Part shown: in pieces, positions 2,290 to 36,230 of the stretch
Numbering within the stretch: position 1 is the stretch's first letter
Layout: the number at the start of each line of letters is the position of its first letter
Virus record (IMG/VR): IMGVR_UViG_3300044522_000924
Span: 1 to 36,230 of that record
From: a virus
Reading direction: 5' to 3' (one strand)
DNA: 36,230 nt
Notes under the pieces: generated by a model
Databases searched by the model: none
The model's input: only the letters and a program-made list of their open reading frames with translations
What the model was told of the DNA's origin: nothing
Program-made: the position numbers and the translations under genes

Positions 2290-3993
2290 TCAGTTTTTCA
2301 AAACATGCCAGGCGATGTGGCAGAGTTTGAGTGCGTCCATGTAGTGATCCTGTGCAACGGATTTCCAGATTAGCTCGGTCCCGCTGGCGGTTTTGCGTGG
2401 GACGAGGCGCTGACCTCCGAGGCCTCGGAAAAGTTCGTTGGTGGAATCCGCCGGCAACTTGAGCGGCGGGTGCGCGTTGCGGATGCGGTCGCTGAATAGC
2501 TCGGTCTTGATGGCGTGGTCAACGTAGGTATAGAGGACGACGCCGGGGAAGTCGGGCAGGACGGTGCGGGAAATCTTCGTTCCGAATGTGGCACCGGAAC
2601 CCTTGCTTGCGTGCCAGAATCCGCCGGAGGCTTGGCAGGCGGTGTAGACTCGGAATGTGGCGAAGCCGGAATCCATGAGGCCACACTCGGGCGAGACCTC
2701 GGCACCGGATGGCGTGCGGTAGGTGCGGCGGGGTGAGTCTTCGAGGAGATCCTCGATGGCGAGGGTGGTCCCGTAGTCGAGGACGTAGGATGCTCCGACA
2801 GCATCAAAGGCGACCGTTACCCAGTGTTGTTTGTCCTGGCCGATGTCCGCGCATGTGACGATGTGGGCTGGCTCGATGGGGCAAGTCCCACGAAGGTAGT
2901 CGCCACGGAGGGCGAGGATGTGCTGCTCGCCGATGGAGGTCTCGATTTGTTCCCATGGCATGGCCATGGTCGAGTTGGTGAAATCTTGCAGGCCGTTGAT
3001 CGTTCCCTTGTCGCGCAGGAATTTGATGGCAAGAGCGCCGAACGTGCAGGAACGCCACGGCGCGTAGAGGCTGTTCAGGTGGAAGGATCGGAAGCCGCGC
3101 TGGGCGGCGGGGTTGGTGGATTGCCACTTGCCGGCTTGAAGGGCTTCGATTTTCTGGCCGTCGTTCCACTCGCCTCCGCACCGCTGGCAAATGTAGCGTG
3201 CGGATTCTTCGACGCGAGCCATGTTCCACTTGCCGTCTTCCTTGGCGGTGGCATCCCACTTGACCTGTTCCCACAAAAGCTCGATGCGCTCGGAGCAATG
3301 CGGGCAGGCGAGCATGAATTTTTCCTGCGTGCCTTTCTGGTATTCCTGCCATATCGCGCCGTCCGGCGTGGTGGGCGTGCTGGTCTTGACGCGAAGCGCG
3401 CCGACGAATGACTTCGTGCGGTTCTCTGCGAGGTGAAGGGCGGAGGTTTCTTGGTCTGTCTCGCGGGCAAATTTGTCCACCTCGTCCATAAGCAGGAGAC
3501 CGGCGGGGCGGCTACTAAGGTTCGCGGGGGAGTTCGACCCTATGAACACGGCTGAGCATCTGGAAAAATGCTGCTCGAGGTTTTTGAATTTGTGCCGGTC
3601 GCTGGGGATCTGATCTCGGAGGGTGGCGCTGTCCTCAAAGAGCGGAAGCCAGCGGGTCTCGGAAAAGGATCGGGCGAGGCCTTCGGTGGGCATGACCCAA
3701 ACGACGGGCTGCGGTTTGTTCACGATCCGCCATGCCGTGCCGGCCTGCACCATCGTGGTCTTGCCGGTCTGCGTTCCGAAGACGAGCACAAGGTCGGAGA
3801 CGTCCACATCGCCGAAGCACTCGAGCGGTTCGCGGAGGTAGGGGGTCATGCGACAGGAGAACGCGCCGGGCATTTGTGTCTGGCGTTCGGAGAGAATAAC
3901 TTCATCACTGCACCACTCGGTGACGGTGCGCCGGTCAATCGGCGCATAGATCGAGCGGAGGTGTTCGCGTAGGGCTTCGGCGGCGGGGGTCAT
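2290..3993 (-). CDS. terL: Terminase large subunit (lambda gpA family)
   Basis: The ATPase-nuclease motor that cuts concatemers and drives DNA into the prohead. The product is 567 residues from ATG 3993, chosen because it overlaps the methyltransferase stop (ATGA); a longer frame starting at 4104 lies inside that gene. Visible parts are the Walker A-like GTQTGKTT (about 73-80), Walker B LLLMDE (about 166-171), a CPHC...CQRC zinc-binding pair in the middle (typical of the GpA family), and a C-terminal nuclease region with CADIGQDKQHW and DSG motifs, ending DHYMDALKLCHIAW. GpA-type terminases usually cut at cos, so cohesive ends are likely, though no cos site was proven here. Confidence 0.95.
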   Translation of the reverse strand: MTPAAEALREHLRSIYAPIDRRTVTEWCSDEVILSERQTQMPGAFSCRMTPYLREPLECFGDVDVSDLVLVFGTQTGKTTMVQAGTAWRIVNKPQPVVWVMPTEGLARSFSETRWLPLFEDSATLRDQIPSDRHKFKNLEQHFSRCSAVFIGSNSPANLSSRPAGLLLMDEVDKFARETDQETSALHLAENRTKSFVGALRVKTSTPTTPDGAIWQEYQKGTQEKFMLACPHCSERIELLWEQVKWDATAKEDGKWNMARVEESARYICQRCGGEWNDGQKIEALQAGKWQSTNPAAQRGFRSFHLNSLYAPWRSCTFGALAIKFLRDKGTINGLQDFTNSTMAMPWEQIETSIGEQHILALRGDYLRGTCPIEPAHIVTCADIGQDKQHWVTVAFDAVGASYVLDYGTTLAIEDLLEDSPRRTYRTPSGAEVSPECGLMDSGFATFRVYTACQASGGFWHASKGSGATFGTKISRTVLPDFPGVVLYTYVDHAIKTELFSDRIRNAHPPLKLPADSTNELFRGLGGQRLVPRKTASGTELIWKSVAQDHYMDALKLCHIAWHVLKN

Positions 3994-5120
3994 GCGAGGC
4001 GCTTGGGTTCTTTGCCGGTGGCATCGGCCCAGCGCTGGATCGCCACGGCGACATAGGCGGGCGAGATTTCGATGGCACGGCATTTGCGGCCAAGTTGCTC
4101 GCATGCCATGATGGTTGTGCCGCTGCCGGAATAGAAATCCGCAATCAGCACCCCATCAATAAAATCAACACACCATTTAATTAGCTCCACAGATTTTTGT
4201 GTTGGATGGACCTTCCCGTCACTAACACACGCGGCACGCGATAAATCAAAAAGCCTGATGGAGTTCTTAAAGTTTGTCCAAGCAAGTTCCCCCTCACCCA
4301 TCGAAAAGTTGCGCTGAATTTTATTCCAAACAAGCCAGCCAGCCGAAACAGGAAGGCGGGGGAAGAAATTACCTCCCCAAATAATTACCTGTTTTGCAAA
4401 GTTAGAAATAAAAGTAATTTGCTCATCTGTAGGTCTACTCTCATCCCACCCTCCTTCGTATTGCTTCCACCCAAACTTTTCTTGCCCTAACTTCATCGAT
4501 CCAGCATAACCGATTCCATAAGGCGGATCTGTAACGACACCATCAGCTTTCTCCCCACCCATAACTCTATCCACATCCTCCTTCTTTGTGCTATCCCCAC
4601 ACAGCAACCTATGGTCGCCAAGCTCCCAAAGTTGCCCGGGCTCGACGCCCCACTTGGCGCGGAGTTCTTCGGCCTTATCGATCTGCGGTTCGGCGTCGGC
4701 GTCTGATTTTTCAGGTTCGTCTTCCATCTCCAACTCGGCGAGGTCTTCAGCGCCGAATCCAATCTCGGCGACATCGACATCCAAGGCCGCGAGATCAGCC
4801 AGCTCGAGCTTGAGCATTTCCTCATCCCACCCGCCACCGATCTCGGCGAGGCGGTTGTCTGCGAGGATGTAGGCTCGGCGCTGCGTGTCGGTGAGGTGGC
4901 CGAGGCGGATGCAGGGGACGGACTCGAGGGCGAGGGATTGAGCGGCGAGCACGCGACCGTGACCGGCGATGATGCCGTTGTCGCGGTCGATCAGGACGGG
5001 GTTGTTGAAGCCGAACTCGCGGATGCTCCCGGCGAGCTTGGCGACTTGGCTGGCGTCGTGCTTTTTCGCGTTGCGCGCGTAGGGGATGAGGTCGGAGGTT
5101 TTGAGGTGTTCGATGGTCAT
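3990..5120 (-). CDS. ParB-like nuclease domain fused to DNA adenine/cytosine-N4 methyltransferase
   Basis: A 376-residue two-domain protein. Residues 1-90 are a ParB/Srx fold (DLIPYARNAKKHD, then IIAGHGRVLAAQ near 51-62). Residues ~165-370 are an N6/N4 methyltransferase with catalytic DPPY (198-201) and the SAM-binding FYSGSGTT (329-336); this order (DPPY before FxGxG) is the beta class. Such fusions are common beside phage terminases and may protect phage DNA from restriction or mark the packaging region. The linker (about 120-155) is acidic. The stretch 4140-4610, covering the methyltransferase core and target-recognition part, is much richer in AT than both flanks, which suggests that this portion was exchanged by recombination. 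It overlaps its neighbours by ATGA at both ends. Confidence 0.92.
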   Translation of the reverse strand: MTIEHLKTSDLIPYARNAKKHDASQVAKLAGSIREFGFNNPVLIDRDNGIIAGHGRVLAAQSLALESVPCIRLGHLTDTQRRAYILADNRLAEIGGGWDEEMLKLELADLAALDVDVAEIGFGAEDLAELEMEDEPEKSDADAEPQIDKAEELRAKWGVEPGQLWELGDHRLLCGDSTKKEDVDRVMGGEKADGVVTDPPYGIGYAGSMKLGQEKFGWKQYEGGWDESRPTDEQITFISNFAKQVIIWGGNFFPRLPVSAGWLVWNKIQRNFSMGEGELAWTNFKNSIRLFDLSRAACVSDGKVHPTQKSVELIKWCVDFIDGVLIADFYSGSGTTIMACEQLGRKCRAIEISPAYVAVAIQRWADATGKEPKRLA

Positions 5121-6887: not shown

Positions 6888-7315
6888 ACCTTGGCGAGGA
6901 GTTCCCTTACTCGCTTGGCTTCGCGCTCCATTGGCTCGAGGAGTTCGAGGGCGCGGTTGAGCCTGTCCTTATCCCATCCTTGGATTTCGTCCGACATCTT
7001 GCGTTGCCATAGGATGAATGATTGGCTGAGCCCCTCGATGGTCACGATGGCCTTGGTCTTGTCTGATGGGTTGAGTGCGGGCTTGGCTTCCGGTAGGGCG
7101 AGGCCTAGGTCTAGCTCGAGCTGTGCCTCGGTGTCGGCTGTGAACTCTATGCCCCATCGTGATGTGCCGTAGTCGCGTGACTGCGTAAGCCACTTGGATG
7201 CGGCCTTCTTGCACGTCAGGATGTCGCGGTGAACGTCTGTCCACTCGGCTGGGGTGAGAGTTGCGGGGAGGTTCAGCGCGTGGAGCGTGAACATGGTAGC
7301 GTCGATTAGTTGCAT
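6884..7315 (-). CDS. Hypothetical protein
   Basis: The 143-residue product starts at ATG 7315 (MQLIDATMFTLHALNLPATL), inside the end of the upstream HTH gene (10-base overlap). The reading frame stays open to 7441, but that extension overlaps the HTH gene deeply and is low-complexity. The C-terminal ~45 residues are a charged helix (DKDRLNRALELLEPMEREAK). No known motif was recognised. It overlaps the next gene by ATGA, which supports co-translation. Confidence 0.72.
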   Translation of the reverse strand: MQLIDATMFTLHALNLPATLTPAEWTDVHRDILTCKKAASKWLTQSRDYGTSRWGIEFTADTEAQLELDLGLALPEAKPALNPSDKTKAIVTIEGLSQSFILWQRKMSDEIQGWDKDRLNRALELLEPMEREAKRVRELLAKV

Positions 7316-7806
7316 TTTTTTGTTATTTTGGTGGATGCTTTGTAGCGTTGTATGGCTGCGGCTTTTGCTGCGGTGAAAGGGTTTGTGGCCTTGGCTTTGA
7401 ATGTTGCCCGGCTGGCTTGGCTCTTCCGGAACTTGGTGCACTCGAATGAGCTATCCTTTCCGCTGAGGACATCGCGGACGCCGAGCGTGTAGTGCGATAG
7501 GAGCGCACGGGTGACGCCTAGCTCTCTTGCCACCTCGGCTTGGGATTTGGCGCCGTTGAGTTGGTCGAGGCCGGAGGCGAATGCGATGGCGTGAGCCATG
7601 GCCGGCAGGTTTGAGGCTTTGAGGAGTAGGCCGATTACCCTGGCGAGGATGAGGGATTGGCTCTTGCGGACCTCGGTATCGACGTGATCCATTACGAGGC
7701 CGGCGGCCTTGAGTGGAATGCCCAGCTCATCGGCGAGGGTCTCTTGCGGCGTATCGATTTCGGTGGCCATGTCCGTGCTGTAAGATCCAGGTGGTGGGTT
7801 GTTCAT
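7306..7806 (-). CDS. HTH-domain protein, possible late-gene regulator
   Basis: The 166-residue product has a clear helix-turn-helix near residues 88-112 (KSQAEVARELGVTRALLSHY), followed by a basic Lys/Ala-rich C-terminal tail (about 125-166). Residues 20-80 are helical and may mediate oligomerisation. The gene lies between the replication block and the packaging genes, a place where phages often encode the late transcription regulator, so that role is plausible. A DNA-packaging or replication-accessory role is also possible. The start at 7806 overlaps the upstream stop by ATGA. Confidence 0.72.
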   Translation of the reverse strand: MNNPPPGSYSTDMATEIDTPQETLADELGIPLKAAGLVMDHVDTEVRKSQSLILARVIGLLLKASNLPAMAHAIAFASGLDQLNGAKSQAEVARELGVTRALLSHYTLGVRDVLSGKDSSFECTKFRKSQASRATFKAKATNPFTAAKAAAIQRYKASTKITKKCN

Positions 7807-15594: not shown

Positions 15595-15710
15595 CGGGCG
15601 ATCCTCCAGGCGAAGATTGACAGCGAGAGAATTGGCACGGTCATGGTGAGAAAATCCAGAAAATAGCCGAGAGAGCGGCAGACGGCGGAGGGGTCGTGGA
15701 GGTCGATCAT
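15591..15710 (-). CDS. Very small membrane protein, 39 residues
   Basis: ATG 15710 overlaps the stop of the HTH gene and TGA at 15591 overlaps the next start, so the frame is coupled at both ends. Residues 15-36 (LGYFLDFLTMTVPILSLSIF) form one hydrophobic segment followed by AWRIAR, which fits a single-pass membrane peptide. No family was recognised. The exact tiling between two supported genes is the main argument that it is translated. Confidence 0.55.
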   Translation of the reverse strand: MIDLHDPSAVCRSLGYFLDFLTMTVPILSLSIFAWRIAR

Positions 15711-15895
15711 TTTGCCCTCCCGATTGCGCGGCTGAGGTCGTTTCCGTCGAGCTTGAGAGCCTTGGTGACTTCGGCTTCGTCAAACCTCCACCATCTTCCA
15801 ACTTTAAAAGCCGGTATGCGGCTTTTTCTAGCCCATTCCTCGATGGTGTATTTTGCCACTCCGAGGCGAGCGGCCATGGCGGTTGAGTCGATCAT
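15707..15895 (-). CDS. Excisionase-like / MerR-type HTH protein, 62 residues
   Basis: The sequence STAMAARLGVAKYTIEEWAR followed by RIPAFKVGRWWRF is the classic DNA-binding pattern of the helix-turn-helix_17 (excisionase) family, in which the wing (KVGRWWRF) follows the recognition helix. The size is typical for Xis. It is the second gene of the early operon behind the RHH regulator, and overlaps it by ATGA, so both would be made together. It could bind near attP to favour excision, or act as a Cro-like regulator. The assignment to the fold is strong, the role is inferred. Confidence 0.85.
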   Translation of the reverse strand: MIDSTAMAARLGVAKYTIEEWARKSRIPAFKVGRWWRFDEAEVTKALKLDGNDLSRAIGRAK

Positions 15896-16056
15896 TTGGA
15901 TGCCCTCCGTTCCTTAGCTGCAAGTTGGCTGATTGCTTGTGAGATGACCCTGCTCACAGGGATTCTCATTCCATTATTTTCGGCGCGCTTTTCAACGTAA
16001 GCCCATACCTCAGGAGGCAGGCTGATGTTGACCGCTTTGAACTTCGTTTTGCTCAT
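15892..16056 (-). CDS. Ribbon-helix-helix regulator, 54 residues (first early gene)
   Basis: A short gene starting at ATG 16056 and ending at TGA 15892, overlapping the next start. The product has the Arc/MetJ/CopG layout: strand KFKAVNISLP (5-14), helix A PEVWAYVEKRAENNG (15-29), helix B PVSRVISQAISQLAAKE (33-49). The two-stranded ribbon of the dimer would read DNA. The divergent plus-strand gene at 16220 encodes a protein with the same layout (NxSLP-x-E-x-x-x-x-V-x-K), so the two are probably distant paralogues. An inverted repeat lies 10-36 bases upstream of this ATG, where a repressor would act. No Shine-Dalgarno sequence is visible. Cro-like or antirepressor function is inferred. Confidence 0.8.
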   Translation of the reverse strand: MSKTKFKAVNISLPPEVWAYVEKRAENNGMRIPVSRVISQAISQLAAKERRASK

Positions 16057-16065
16057 GCCAGCAAC

Positions 16066-16093
16066 ATTGCCAATCTTGCCATTATTGGCAATG
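16066..16093. promoter_or_regulatory. Operator O1 (inverted repeats) over the early promoter
   Basis: ATTGCCAAT (16066-16074) and ATTGGCAAT (16084-16092) are perfect 9-base inverted repeats. An inner palindrome TTGCCA-TTAT-TGGCAA (16076-16091) shares the right arm. The full word TTGCCATTATTGGCAATG (16076-16093) recurs at 16185-16202 with two changes. On the minus strand the centre reads AATAAT (16086-16081), five of six matches to a -10 box, about 25 bases before the ATG at 16056. Repressor binding would cover that promoter. Confidence 0.65.
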
Positions 16094-16184
16094 AAATTAG
16101 TAGAACACCCTATGCCGAAGTTTTATTTTTTAGTTGACAACCCCATGAACACTAGCTCTGCGGGGCAAAATAAATTTTGCAATT

Positions 16185-16202
16185 TTGCTATTATTGACAA
16201 TG
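16185..16202. promoter_or_regulatory. Operator O2 over the promoter of the plus-strand regulator
   Basis: TTGCTATTATTGACAATG matches O1 at 16 of 18 positions. Its first half contains TGC-TATTAT (16186-16194), an extended -10 promoter element on the plus strand, about 25 bases before the ATG at 16220. The copy is less palindromic than O1, so the two sites may bind with different strength. The spacing between copies is 109 bases. Confidence 0.6.
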
Positions 16203-16219
16203 GTGCTATTGTTTTTTCC

Positions 16220-16489
16220 ATGAAAACAATCAAAACTCAGAACGTTTCGCTCCCGATAGAGCTGCACGAATGGGTGCAAAAAAAAATGGATGAAACCAAG
16301 AAAAGCACTCCTTGGGCTAAAGCCACATTTTCATCCATCGTTGAGCATGCGCTCGTGGAGTTGCAACGCACGGAACTCGAAGAGGGAAAAGCCAAGTCGG
16401 GTGTTGGTGTAACGATCCAACCAACCTCCGAAACTTTCGGTTCTGGACCATCAACTCGGGCCAAGAAAACCTCCCGCAAGGCTGGCTAG
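16220..16489 (+). CDS. Ribbon-helix-helix repressor candidate, 89 residues (only plus-strand gene)
   Basis: The start ATG 16220 is chosen because the RHH fold begins there: strand IKTQNVSLP (4-12), helix A IELHEWVQKKMDETKK (13-28), helix B KATFSSIVEHALVELQR (34-50). The frame is open upstream to 16025, but that part covers the operators and has no domain. Residues 51-89 are a charged, Ser/Thr/Lys-rich tail with no clear fold. It is divergent from the RHH-Xis early operon and convergent with integrase. It is the only gene facing away from the lytic operon, so it is the best candidate for the lysogeny repressor; no cI-like HTH or peptidase repressor was found. Function is inferred from place and fold. 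Confidence 0.78.
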   Translation: MKTIKTQNVSLPIELHEWVQKKMDETKKSTPWAKATFSSIVEHALVELQRTELEEGKAKSGVGVTIQPTSETFGSGPSTRAKKTSRKAG

Positions 16490-16600
16490 GAAAGATCATC
16501 GACCTAACTACCTGCGAAGACCACTCGCACCCAGACACTTACCCAGACAAAGACGGGGCTGATGGGGGGGGGGGGGGGTAACTTGCTTCCTTTAATTACT
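16490..16600. repeat. Convergent gap with a G15 homopolymer (16564-16578)
   Basis: This gap lies between the 3' end of the plus-strand RHH gene and the 3' end of the minus-strand integrase. It contains fifteen consecutive G on the plus strand. No stem-loop terminator was found on either strand. A G-run can form quadruplex or R-loop structures and stall polymerase, so it may serve as a collision barrier, but its length may also be unstable or an assembly artefact. Confidence 0.6.
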
Positions 16601-17605
16601 TTACAAAGCCCAAAACGCTTTAGCTTCGCTTTGACGAACTCCCCTAGCATACTTTTCTTCGACCATGCGCGGGGATGAATGACCGAGAAAATAAGCGGTT
16701 TTGCTGCTGTCCATGCACATGGCACGGTGCATGGAGGCCGCCGTATGCCGGAGACAATTTTGCGGCCACTCCGCCCACCCCATAGCATGCACCAGCTCGG
16801 TGCGCTGACGTTTAATAAAATCCTCTTCAAGGCAGTCCCATTTTTTAGGAAGGTGTCGGAGTAGCGCCGGCTGGATCGGGACGAATCGCGGGCGCGGCTT
16901 TGGGTCGGTGGATTTCCGAATGGGAATAAATATCTCTTCGGCCTCGATGTGCTTCGGCAGGCATCGCCCGACCTCCGAGACGCGCAAGCCTCCGAACAAC
17001 CCAAGGACAAGCCAAGCTCTCAGGCGGTTGTTTTTTTCCGTAATGGCGAGAAGGCGCTTCACTTGCGGGAGTGTCAGTAAATGGTGCTCCGGCGCGGCCT
17101 TTGGCGTGTCGATTTTGAGAACTGGGTTGACTGATGCGAGTTCGTAGCGAACGAGCCAATTCCATACGAGGCGAAGATAAACGAATCCCTGTTGCGCCGT
17201 AGTCCCGCACCAACTCGGGCGAGAAAGAAAAGCCTCGATGTGGAGAGGCTTAATGTCGTTGAGGCCCATCGCGCCGTATTTCTCAACGAAATGCCCCCAC
17301 CACCAATTCAAGAGCCGGGTATGGTTGCCCACCTTGAGCTTCGGCATTCTCACCAGGGTAAATTCCTTCCACGCTTTCTCAACTGAGAGCCCCGAAGATT
17401 CCTTGAAGGCATCCGTGCCTCCAGTCTCCAATTTCTCAGCGAGAGCATCGCGGTGAAGGCGTGCCTCGAGGCGGGTATTAAAGAACGTGCGCTTCTCCTT
17501 ACCGCCGATGCGCGAGAAAACCACGTGCCGGGGTTGGCCTCGCACCGTGGCCTCGCGGATGGTGATTACCGGCTTGTTGCGTCGTGTTGCGTCCGTTGCG
17601 TCCAT
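16601..17605 (-). CDS. int: Tyrosine site-specific integrase
   Basis: This enzyme recombines attP with the host attB. The product is 334 residues from ATG 17605. An N-terminal arm-binding segment (about 12-60, TIREATVRGQPRHVVFSRIG), a core-binding domain (about 70-165) and the catalytic domain follow. Catalytic residues are Arg 208 (FGGLRVSEV), a likely Lys 231, the CLRH box (Arg 286, His 287; the usual leading His is Asn 283), His 309 (LGHSS) and nucleophile Tyr 319 (EEKYARG). The gene reads away from attP, which lies 108 bases upstream of its start, and its first codons contain three GTTGCG repeats. Confidence 0.96.
   Translation of the reverse strand: MDATDATRRNKPVITIREATVRGQPRHVVFSRIGGKEKRTFFNTRLEARLHRDALAEKLETGGTDAFKESSGLSVEKAWKEFTLVRMPKLKVGNHTRLLNWWWGHFVEKYGAMGLNDIKPLHIEAFLSRPSWCGTTAQQGFVYLRLVWNWLVRYELASVNPVLKIDTPKAAPEHHLLTLPQVKRLLAITEKNNRLRAWLVLGLFGGLRVSEVGRCLPKHIEAEEIFIPIRKSTDPKPRPRFVPIQPALLRHLPKKWDCLEEDFIKRQRTELVHAMGWAEWPQNCLRHTAASMHRAMCMDSSKTAYFLGHSSPRMVEEKYARGVRQSEAKAFWAL
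17576..17600. repeat. Three phased GTTGCG repeats (candidate integrase arm sites, integrase side)
   Basis: GTTGCG occurs at 17576-17581, 17586-17591 and 17595-17600, spaced 10 and 9 bases, in one orientation. They fall in the first codons of the integrase gene. The same word occurs twice on the other side of attP. Lambda-type integrases bind short direct repeats in both arms of attP, so this is a plausible P' or P arm. Confidence 0.45.
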
Positions 17606-35537: not shown

Positions 35538-36230
35538 TTATGCCTTGGAAATCTTTTGGCGGGCTTGCCAGATGAGAGCTTTGTGCTTCTCAAAAAGGGC
35601 GGATGCGGCCTTGCGGTCGCCGGACTCTACGGCGGCGAGATACTCGGCGACGGGGTCGAGGGCTTCCGGTGCCGCATTTTCGATGATCGGAACGACGCGG
35701 GCGGCGGAGAGGCCGAGGCTACGCTCGAGGCGGGCGAGGTCTTGGCTGACGGTGTCGAACTTCGCTTTATAAGCGGAGGATTCGGCTAGGGCGCTGTCGA
35801 GCTTCGCTGAGAGTTCGTTGTATTTCGCAAGGATCGAATCGGCGATGTTTGCCTTGGCTTGCGGTTCGTCCACGATGATCTCCTCGGCGACCGGTTGCTC
35901 TGCCTCTACGGTTGGAGTTGGTTCGGAGGATTCGACCTCGAGGATGGGCTCGGCGGCGATGGACTCGCTGACTACGGTTCCAGCTTCAGGAACTTCGATC
36001 TCTGCTTTTTGGCTCATGCCCTTTGCGAAGTTGTCAAATCTGGCACGGAGATTTTCGGGGGTGGCTGTTGCGGCTGCTGCGACTCCCTCTTCGATGGCGT
36101 CGGCAAATCCGAGGGCGACGGCATCCACGGCGTCGAGCCATGTTTCTTTGTCCATCATGTCTTGGATCTCGGTTTCTCCGAGGCCTGTCTTGCGGACGTA
36201 GGCGTTGCGGAGATTGACCTTGAGCATGTC
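35538..36230 (-). CDS. ClpP-like protease C-terminal part plus scaffold-like tail (same gene as 1-400)
   Basis: This is the continuation of the protease gene cut by the window ends. The first ~50 residues (YVRKTGLGETEIQDMMDKET, then WLDAVDAVALGFADAIEEG) are the typical ClpP alpha-helical end. After a linker the last ~160 residues are rich in Glu, Ala, Lys and Ser, with a predicted helical, coiled-coil-like stretch (about residues 105-170 of this piece). That suits a scaffolding domain fused to the protease, as lambda Nu3 is nested in C. An in-frame ATG at 36017-36015 (MSQKAEIEVPEAG) could start a separate scaffold of about 159 residues. It has a GA-rich AAAGGG before it, but only one base from the ATG, so independent initiation is uncertain. 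The TTTGACA word seen at other late-gene starts lies at 36038-36032, just upstream. The stop at 35538 is followed by the capsid gene. Confidence 0.9.
   Translation of the reverse strand, partial: DMLKVNLRNAYVRKTGLGETEIQDMMDKETWLDAVDAVALGFADAIEEGVAAAATATPENLRARFDNFAKGMSQKAEIEVPEAGTVVSESIAAEPILEVESSEPTPTVEAEQPVAEEIIVDEPQAKANIADSILAKYNELSAKLDSALAESSAYKAKFDTVSQDLARLERSLGLSAARVVPIIENAAPEALDPVAEYLAAVESGDRKAASALFEKHKALIWQARQKISKA

Follow-up and report, generated by a model that had tools for sequence, protein, structure and literature searches.

The window, an IMG/VR virus record analysed over its whole length of 36,230 bp, holds a presumably temperate phage genome of ~36.2 kb in which 2 genes, here called L and R, diverge from an intergenic region of 163 bp (Table 1). 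The stop codon of L overlaps the HTH_17 excisionase-like gene by the sequence ATGA, and this gene and the integrase are both what a temperate phage would be expected to carry. The ends of the record share a 13-bp repeat (positions 1–13 and 36218–36230) and a ClpP-type gene remains open, without a stop codon, across the joined ends. These 2 features show a complete genome, either circular or circularly permuted, and the absence of another repressor from the window is therefore meaningful. No end repeats are annotated for linear-class records of this kind, yet the terminal repeat is present. Beside the terminase genes, a ParB-like domain is fused to a DNA methyltransferase (3990–5120; PHROG 498, E-value 4.5e-97).

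Table 1. Features of the L–R locus in window coordinates and the evidence for each.
Feature	Position	Strand	Description	Basis
L	15892–16056	-	54-aa RHH protein; opens the leftward early operon	Kept in relatives; Arc-like model
R, short form	16220–16489	+	89 aa; N-terminal RHH head at about residues 1–52	Homologues; match to the L profile
Slippery heptamer G_GGA_AAA in the R frame	16384–16390	+	Proposed -1 frameshift site	Single phase in relatives
R tail, -1 frame	16390–16581	+	Conserved domain SQVGCWCNDPTNLRNFRFWTINSGQENLPQGWLGKIIDLTT...; predicted long form of 120 aa	Coding-type substitutions; relatives; no in-frame start
O1	16065–16093	none	Operator-like palindrome CATTGCCAAT(n9)ATTGGCAATG, directly upstream of L	Inverted and direct repeats
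O2	16180–16202	none	Second copy of the motif (20/23 bases), directly upstream of R	
Type-independent core	16134–16178	none	TTGACA..CATG...TGCGGGGCAAAATAAATTTT	Alignment of 15 intergenic regions
HTH_17 protein	15707–15895	-	Excisionase-like	Pfam HTH_17 2.3e-8; PHROG excisionases 2.9e-7 and 5.9e-7
Tyrosine integrase (int)	16601–17605	-	Convergent with R	PHROG 1, 5.6e-31; 32 relatives

The first-pass annotation had described L and R as ribbon-helix-helix (RHH) proteins of 54 and 89 residues facing away from each other, and the coordinates it gave for both genes were confirmed. L recurs identically in 3 other contigs, and in a second clade its identity is 61%. For R, eight relatives were found in IMG/VR, and its homologues show 67–74% identity in the alignment and conserve the start at 16220. 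A longer ORF for R, from 16025, is without support, the start of the homologues being 16220. That R is the sole plus-strand gene, as had also been proposed, agrees with the coding scan, in which the ORFs picked by coding score were all on the minus strand, while R itself is backed by its homologues. Homologues of R or L were not found in isolated phages (no match among 50,697 phage records), and a genome scan using the R alignment gave no match.

Neither the L nor the R protein of the window reaches the Pfam cut-off, and assigning their fold thus required relatives and profiles. Structure prediction of both proteins bore out the RHH reading for L only. The L model, for which 13 L relatives were used, had a pLDDT of 83 with helices at residues 15–25 and 34–53, and its first PDB matches were the Arc co-crystals 1bdv and 1par (probability 0.95–0.96, E-value 0.2), followed by other RHH proteins; the weak E-value is as expected at 50 residues. 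In addition, the L sequence profile matched Arc, Mnt, and CdbA with E-values of about 0.01. The R model placed helices at the RHH positions (13–29 and 37–54) with low confidence (pLDDT 67), and a PDB fold search with this monomer model returned no RHH match. The R protein of locus L091, which has another head and the same tail, scored 26.1 bits with Pfam RHH_1 (cut-off 20.5). As far as profiles and models can tell, L and R are both RHH proteins, the assignment of R resting on profile evidence.

The N-x-SLP pattern earlier noted as common to the 2 proteins is exact (N-I-SLP-P-E-VWAY-V-E-K in L and N-V-SLP-I-E-LHEW-V-Q-K in R), and the suspected paralogy was upheld by profile comparison: hhalign matched the R and L profiles with a probability of 97.8 and an E-value of 7.5e-13 over the whole RHH region, and partners outscored non-partners (R-L score of 55.6 for own partners versus 38.7 when permuted, sd 3.0). 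By this measure R and L are homologous. At the extreme, as in locus L123, the 2 proteins consist of almost the same domain (R, SAGISLEPALIKKAKEFSEKNGFGSLSNYVRFLLTQEL; L, SAGISLPPQLIKDARKHAYGRGMSLSGLVRQLLLERL), and this also holds for the partners of locus L149, from a Chthoniobacter MAG. Such resemblance would be expected of partners that have to read the same DNA and that change backbones together with it.

We surveyed 20 of the 32 integrase relatives, those with an intact neighbourhood, together with the window (21 loci); the R of locus L035 entered at the stage of operator comparison. A divergent pair of short RHH-like proteins lay between the integrase and the excisionase-like gene in 20/21 intact loci, and these pairs belong to many mutually unrelated types. 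The exception, locus L036, has no R and a different RHH-like L; int (which ends at 1165), Xis, and the intergenic core are kept there, and no R is recognisable downstream of int. Loci L088 and L091 encode an R with a CopG-like head, and no RHH L was seen in the divergent position. In locus L009 (6001–6260, on the same contig as L124), there is a frameshift within the RHH head of R and 2 different RHH-like ORFs occupy the L position, which suggests a switch that is decaying or misassembled.

Types are exchanged between phage backbones. Integrases that are 90–98% identical and Xis proteins that are 81–100% identical can go with R heads only 15–29% alike, as in loci L021 and L022 (integrase 94% and Xis 95% identical, but R heads 23% and L 38%) and in loci L038 and L043 (integrase 98%, Xis 100%, R heads only 19%). 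Conversely, R and L types can be 50–72% alike despite integrases of 72–74% identity and Xis proteins that are half-identical, as in loci L022 and L038 (integrase 74% and Xis 50%, yet R heads 63% and L 72%). The similarities among R proteins and among L proteins rise together (r=0.81 over 16 types), and none of 20,000 permutations gave a value as high. The loci are kin and not independent samples, so that all permutation values given here overstate significance. Read from these comparisons, L and R types are co-inherited and move between backbones like lambdoid immunity cassettes.

The exchanged sets appear to include DNA sites. Before L there is a 10-bp perfect inverted repeat (16065–16074 and 16084–16093), and the motif TTGCCATTATTGGCAA, allowing up to 3 mismatches, occurs in the whole genome only at O1 and O2. 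Other types have other motifs at both intergenic ends (GGTGCAC, CGGTGCTACYGGT, GTATTACTRGT, and TTTGYGCACAAAAAA). The match between left and right motifs averaged 10.9 within a phage and 8.1 between phages, with 0 of 20,000 permutations as high; in loci L028 and L032 it is unconvincing when taken singly. By comparison alone, and without binding data, each type has an operator-like motif of its own, present at either end of the intergenic sequence. Between the motifs, a core of ~45 bp (TTGACAtcCGCATG...TGCGGGcGAAAATAtaTTTT) is common to all types across backbones while both flanks differ. It contains the inverted repeat CCGCA/TGCGG and is probably a promoter or a host-factor sequence. A consensus scan of the intergenic region for a sigma-70 promoter found none. 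By eye, there is an extended -10-like sequence, TGC-TATTGT, 7 nt upstream of the R start codon, and an R mRNA transcribed from it could be leaderless; against this, other types have Shine-Dalgarno-like sequences at that position. At the other end of R, several relatives have the stops of R and int 19 nt apart, which makes it unlikely that an attachment site generally lies between these 2 genes.

The short form of R stands as first annotated, but the most unusual feature of this gene, a tail in the -1 frame, had been missed. Translating the 3' half of R in 3 frames in all relatives identified the -1 frame as the conserved one, with the consensus (C.C)xxxxVREFRFWxINSxxExLPxGWxGxIIDLT and the core FRxWxxNS...LPxGWxxxIxDLT. 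Over 17 diverse sequences, substitution rates in this frame were 0.40, 0.24, and 0.47 at codon positions 1, 2, and 3, changed codons had a mean BLOSUM62 score of +1.6, there were no stops, and the frame was the best of six. A search for the tail domain produced 131 loci, of which 80 were kept, and heptamer statistics were computed on 74 distinct loci within 40 codons upstream of the tail-domain motif. GGGAAAN was present in 62 of the 74 and always in the phase at which a simultaneous -1 slip out of the R frame would be possible (62/62, none in another phase), although the heads that precede it are of many types; by chance, an in-phase heptamer is expected in ~1% of loci (equal base frequencies, 40 positions x 4^-6). 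The remaining 12 lack a perfect heptamer, and several of them have a G_GAA_AAG-like or A-run sequence there. ATG, GTG, and TTG are absent from the -1 frame before the tail domain in 54 loci, a start codon between heptamer and tail domain occurs in only 1 of 62, and in 16 loci a -1 frame stop precedes the heptamer by 5 codons or fewer.

Heads and tails recombine separately, as indicated by loci L030 and L033, in which the heads are 98% and the tails 52% identical; locus L043 is without a tail. Pfam and PHROGs searches with the long R gave no credible match to the tail, and the tail domain had no credible relative among solved structures. How far the R frame stays open through the tail is accounted for by the peptide of the -1 frame (median P 0.57), with no sign of a constraint of its own, and the tail sequence of the short form may for that reason be unimportant. 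R seems to be made in 2 forms, and 16489 is probably not its only end. The heptamer and the selection on the -1 frame can be read directly from the alignments; the shift itself and the function of the tail are inferred from them. A run of 15 G (16564–16578) encodes the GGGGG end of the -1 frame tail directly before the stop codon TAA at 16579. Relatives also have G-runs, of variable length, and a number of IMG/VR contigs stop at such runs, which are either assembly breaks or hypervariable tracts.

We consider it likely, from comparative sequence evidence only, that a temperate phage family has in this locus its primary immunity region and its lysis-lysogeny switch, with R as the repressor, L in a Cro-like role, and a frameshifted tail on R. 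The proposal in the first-pass annotation of a switch run by 2 RHH relatives that share operators is backed by the position of the genes, their homology, the motifs at both intergenic ends, and the set-wise exchange, all of which are visible in the sequences. Binding of DNA by R or L is inferred and has not been measured, and the separate roles of the 2 proteins, the lysis-lysogeny decision, and the identity of the protein that maintains lysogeny are likewise inferred; for R as the repressor, the inference is from gene order. R, which is transcribed away from the lytic genes, would silence the prophage from O1, where its binding would block the leftward early promoter, and would tune its own promoter through O2. 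L, the first gene of the lytic operon, before the excisionase-like gene, would act on the same sites in a Cro-like manner and turn R off, so that homology and shared sites would lead to mutual repression. Since the RHH head would read the operator, a phage could acquire a new immunity by swapping the whole set of L, operators, and R head, while the second half of R, common to all types, would recombine separately. At G_GGA_AAA a fraction of ribosomes would slip by -1, and the resulting long R would end in the conserved C-terminal domain, which perhaps joins repressors together or receives an induction signal. RHH proteins bind as dimers or higher assemblies, and long subunits, as a fraction of the R molecules, could add a contact or a sensor to such a complex. 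We lean, without firm conviction, towards regarding this as a new immunity class, in which RHH-pair cassettes of many specificities combine with a common tail reached only by frameshifting, so that the ribosome would determine the proportion of 2 repressor forms, of which the long one has a domain for oligomerisation or induction.

A canonical repressor elsewhere would refute the pair as the main switch. Peptidase_S24 and HTH_3 were searched for in the window and 11 related records, some of them fragments, and nothing exceeded the cut-off in these 12 phage records: there was no S24 match and HTH_3 matches were sub-threshold only, in keeping with the earlier statement that no cI-type, Cro-type or peptidase repressor gene was found in the window. 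The weak HTH_3 match of the window (7474–7545, 18.8 bits versus a cut-off of 23) belongs to a replication-region gene on the minus strand (7306–7806) and is seen again in several relatives. The product of this or another gene could be the true repressor, unrecognised, and the RHH pair, which sits between int and the excisionase-like gene, could serve only excision and integration or be secondary like P22 immI. We hold this to be unlikely without dismissing it: it is the RHH pair that forms the hypervariable, set-wise exchanged module, as immunity predicts, L comes first in the early operon, the sub-threshold HTH match falls in a co-directional gene without a divergent promoter of its own, and the locus, unlike P22, has no antirepressor gene. 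A toxin-antitoxin or partition module is hardly credible. RHH proteins are common in both, and some L proteins have weak Pfam matches to the CopG, RelB, and HicB antitoxin families, but here both partners are RHH proteins homologous to each other, neither a toxin nor a ParA-like gene is adjacent, and the location and mosaic pattern fit immunity.

Granting that the pair is the switch, the roles could be reversed, with L as an autoregulated lysogeny repressor and R as its antagonist. The stronger palindrome, O1, is at the L promoter, and autoregulation, established for Arc-type proteins, is frequent among RHH repressors. Against this, L is co-oriented and overlapping with the excisionase-like gene and so would be made with the lytic genes, whereas R has a transcript to itself, running opposite to the lytic genes, and has the extra domain; the reversal is to our judgement decidedly unlikely. 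About as doubtful, and quite unlikely too, is that the -1 frame tail involves no ribosomal frameshift and arises from a separate non-standard start or from polymerase slippage, or is a relic. No consistent conserved RNA structure was found 3' of the heptamer (z mostly between -2 and +0.7), nor any strong stimulatory structure, and A-runs, a possible cause of polymerase slippage, are present in some loci without the heptamer. The -1 frame stop that closely precedes the heptamer in 16 loci leaves almost no room for a start, however, a relic would not evolve as coding sequence, and the heptamer keeps one phase despite very different heads and flanks. This single phase across backbones with different flanks, together with the exchange of heads between backbones, is the firmest part of the evidence.

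Integrase relatives are present in MAG contigs assigned to Terrimicrobiaceae (locus L135, which also carries the RHH pair and the tail) and Chthoniobacter flavus (locus L136), and the tail domain was found in 4 of 213 genomes of the same order, the only one examined, mostly with RHH R and L proteins and the heptamer. The hosts of the family are probably Verrucomicrobiota, with the reservation that MAG binning of viral contigs can go wrong. The well-studied primary switches of bacterial phages mostly use helix-turn-helix repressors, and RHH proteins have previously appeared as pairs in a secondary layer (P22) or as a single repressor in the archaeal virus SSV1. In the present case, RHH pairs of more than a dozen types seem to serve an entire family of phages. 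These would constitute a natural library of matched repressor-operator sets in which the evolution of DNA specificity can be followed in one of the smallest DNA-binding folds. The frameshift between exchangeable heads and a common tail would let a modular repressor recombine and keep its 2 isoforms, and the role of the frameshift ratio in a bistable switch becomes testable. The locus also provides a sequence signature for the immunity region of Verrucomicrobiota phages, of which standard family searches miss both the repressor and the tail.

A literature search, mostly without subscription journals, did not find a frameshift-extended RHH-pair phage switch described. The heptamer belongs to a known class: in E. 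coli, ribosomes shift very readily at G_GGA_AAG, and halovirus tail genes use G_GGA_AAC and G_GGA_AAG (PMC5009743). In phage tail genes such as G/GT, G_GGA_AAN serves to make tail chaperones. Among regulators, the cro gene of phage A2 has been reported to undergo a -1 shift that apparently does not matter in the phage's host (PMC5009743), and a +1 shift gives rise to FseA, an activator encoded by a Mesorhizobium ICE (PMC5009743, PMC5882170). None of these cases joins exchangeable RHH heads to a common tail.

In P22 the main switch is c2/cro. The P22 immI region, in which Arc represses mnt and Mnt represses arc and ant, controls the antirepressor and is dispensable for lysogeny (PMC7549136, PMC11016777), and the earlier description of Arc/Mnt as a secondary region is correct. 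The window resembles immI in having 2 related short RHH repressors, and Arc gives the best structural matches of the L model; it differs in that the pair lies between int and an HTH_17 excisionase-like gene, that no other repressor was found, and that R has a frameshifted tail. F55 of SSV1, an RHH protein of 55 aa, is the main regulator that maintains lysogeny (the carrier state); it binds to its own promoter and to several early ones (PMC9608457). Unlike the pair described here, it is a single RHH protein of an archaeal virus, with no divergent partner and no frameshift. In Pseudomonas Pf prophages, Arc-family genes are found close to xis and repressor C, within a regulatory region that varies (PMC7549136); this separate repressor C (Pf4r) sets them apart, and they have no divergent RHH pair as the sole switch.

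By its logic, the locus is like the lambdoid phages, as matched regulator-operator sets are exchanged between otherwise similar phages, with binding and mutual repression being inferred in our case. Lambdoid CI and Cro are divergently encoded, homologous DNA-binding proteins that share operators and are swapped as a set between phages. Both are helix-turn-helix proteins, and CI has an S24-type C-terminal domain in frame. The pair of the window, in contrast, consists of RHH proteins without S24, and its second domain is encoded in the -1 frame.
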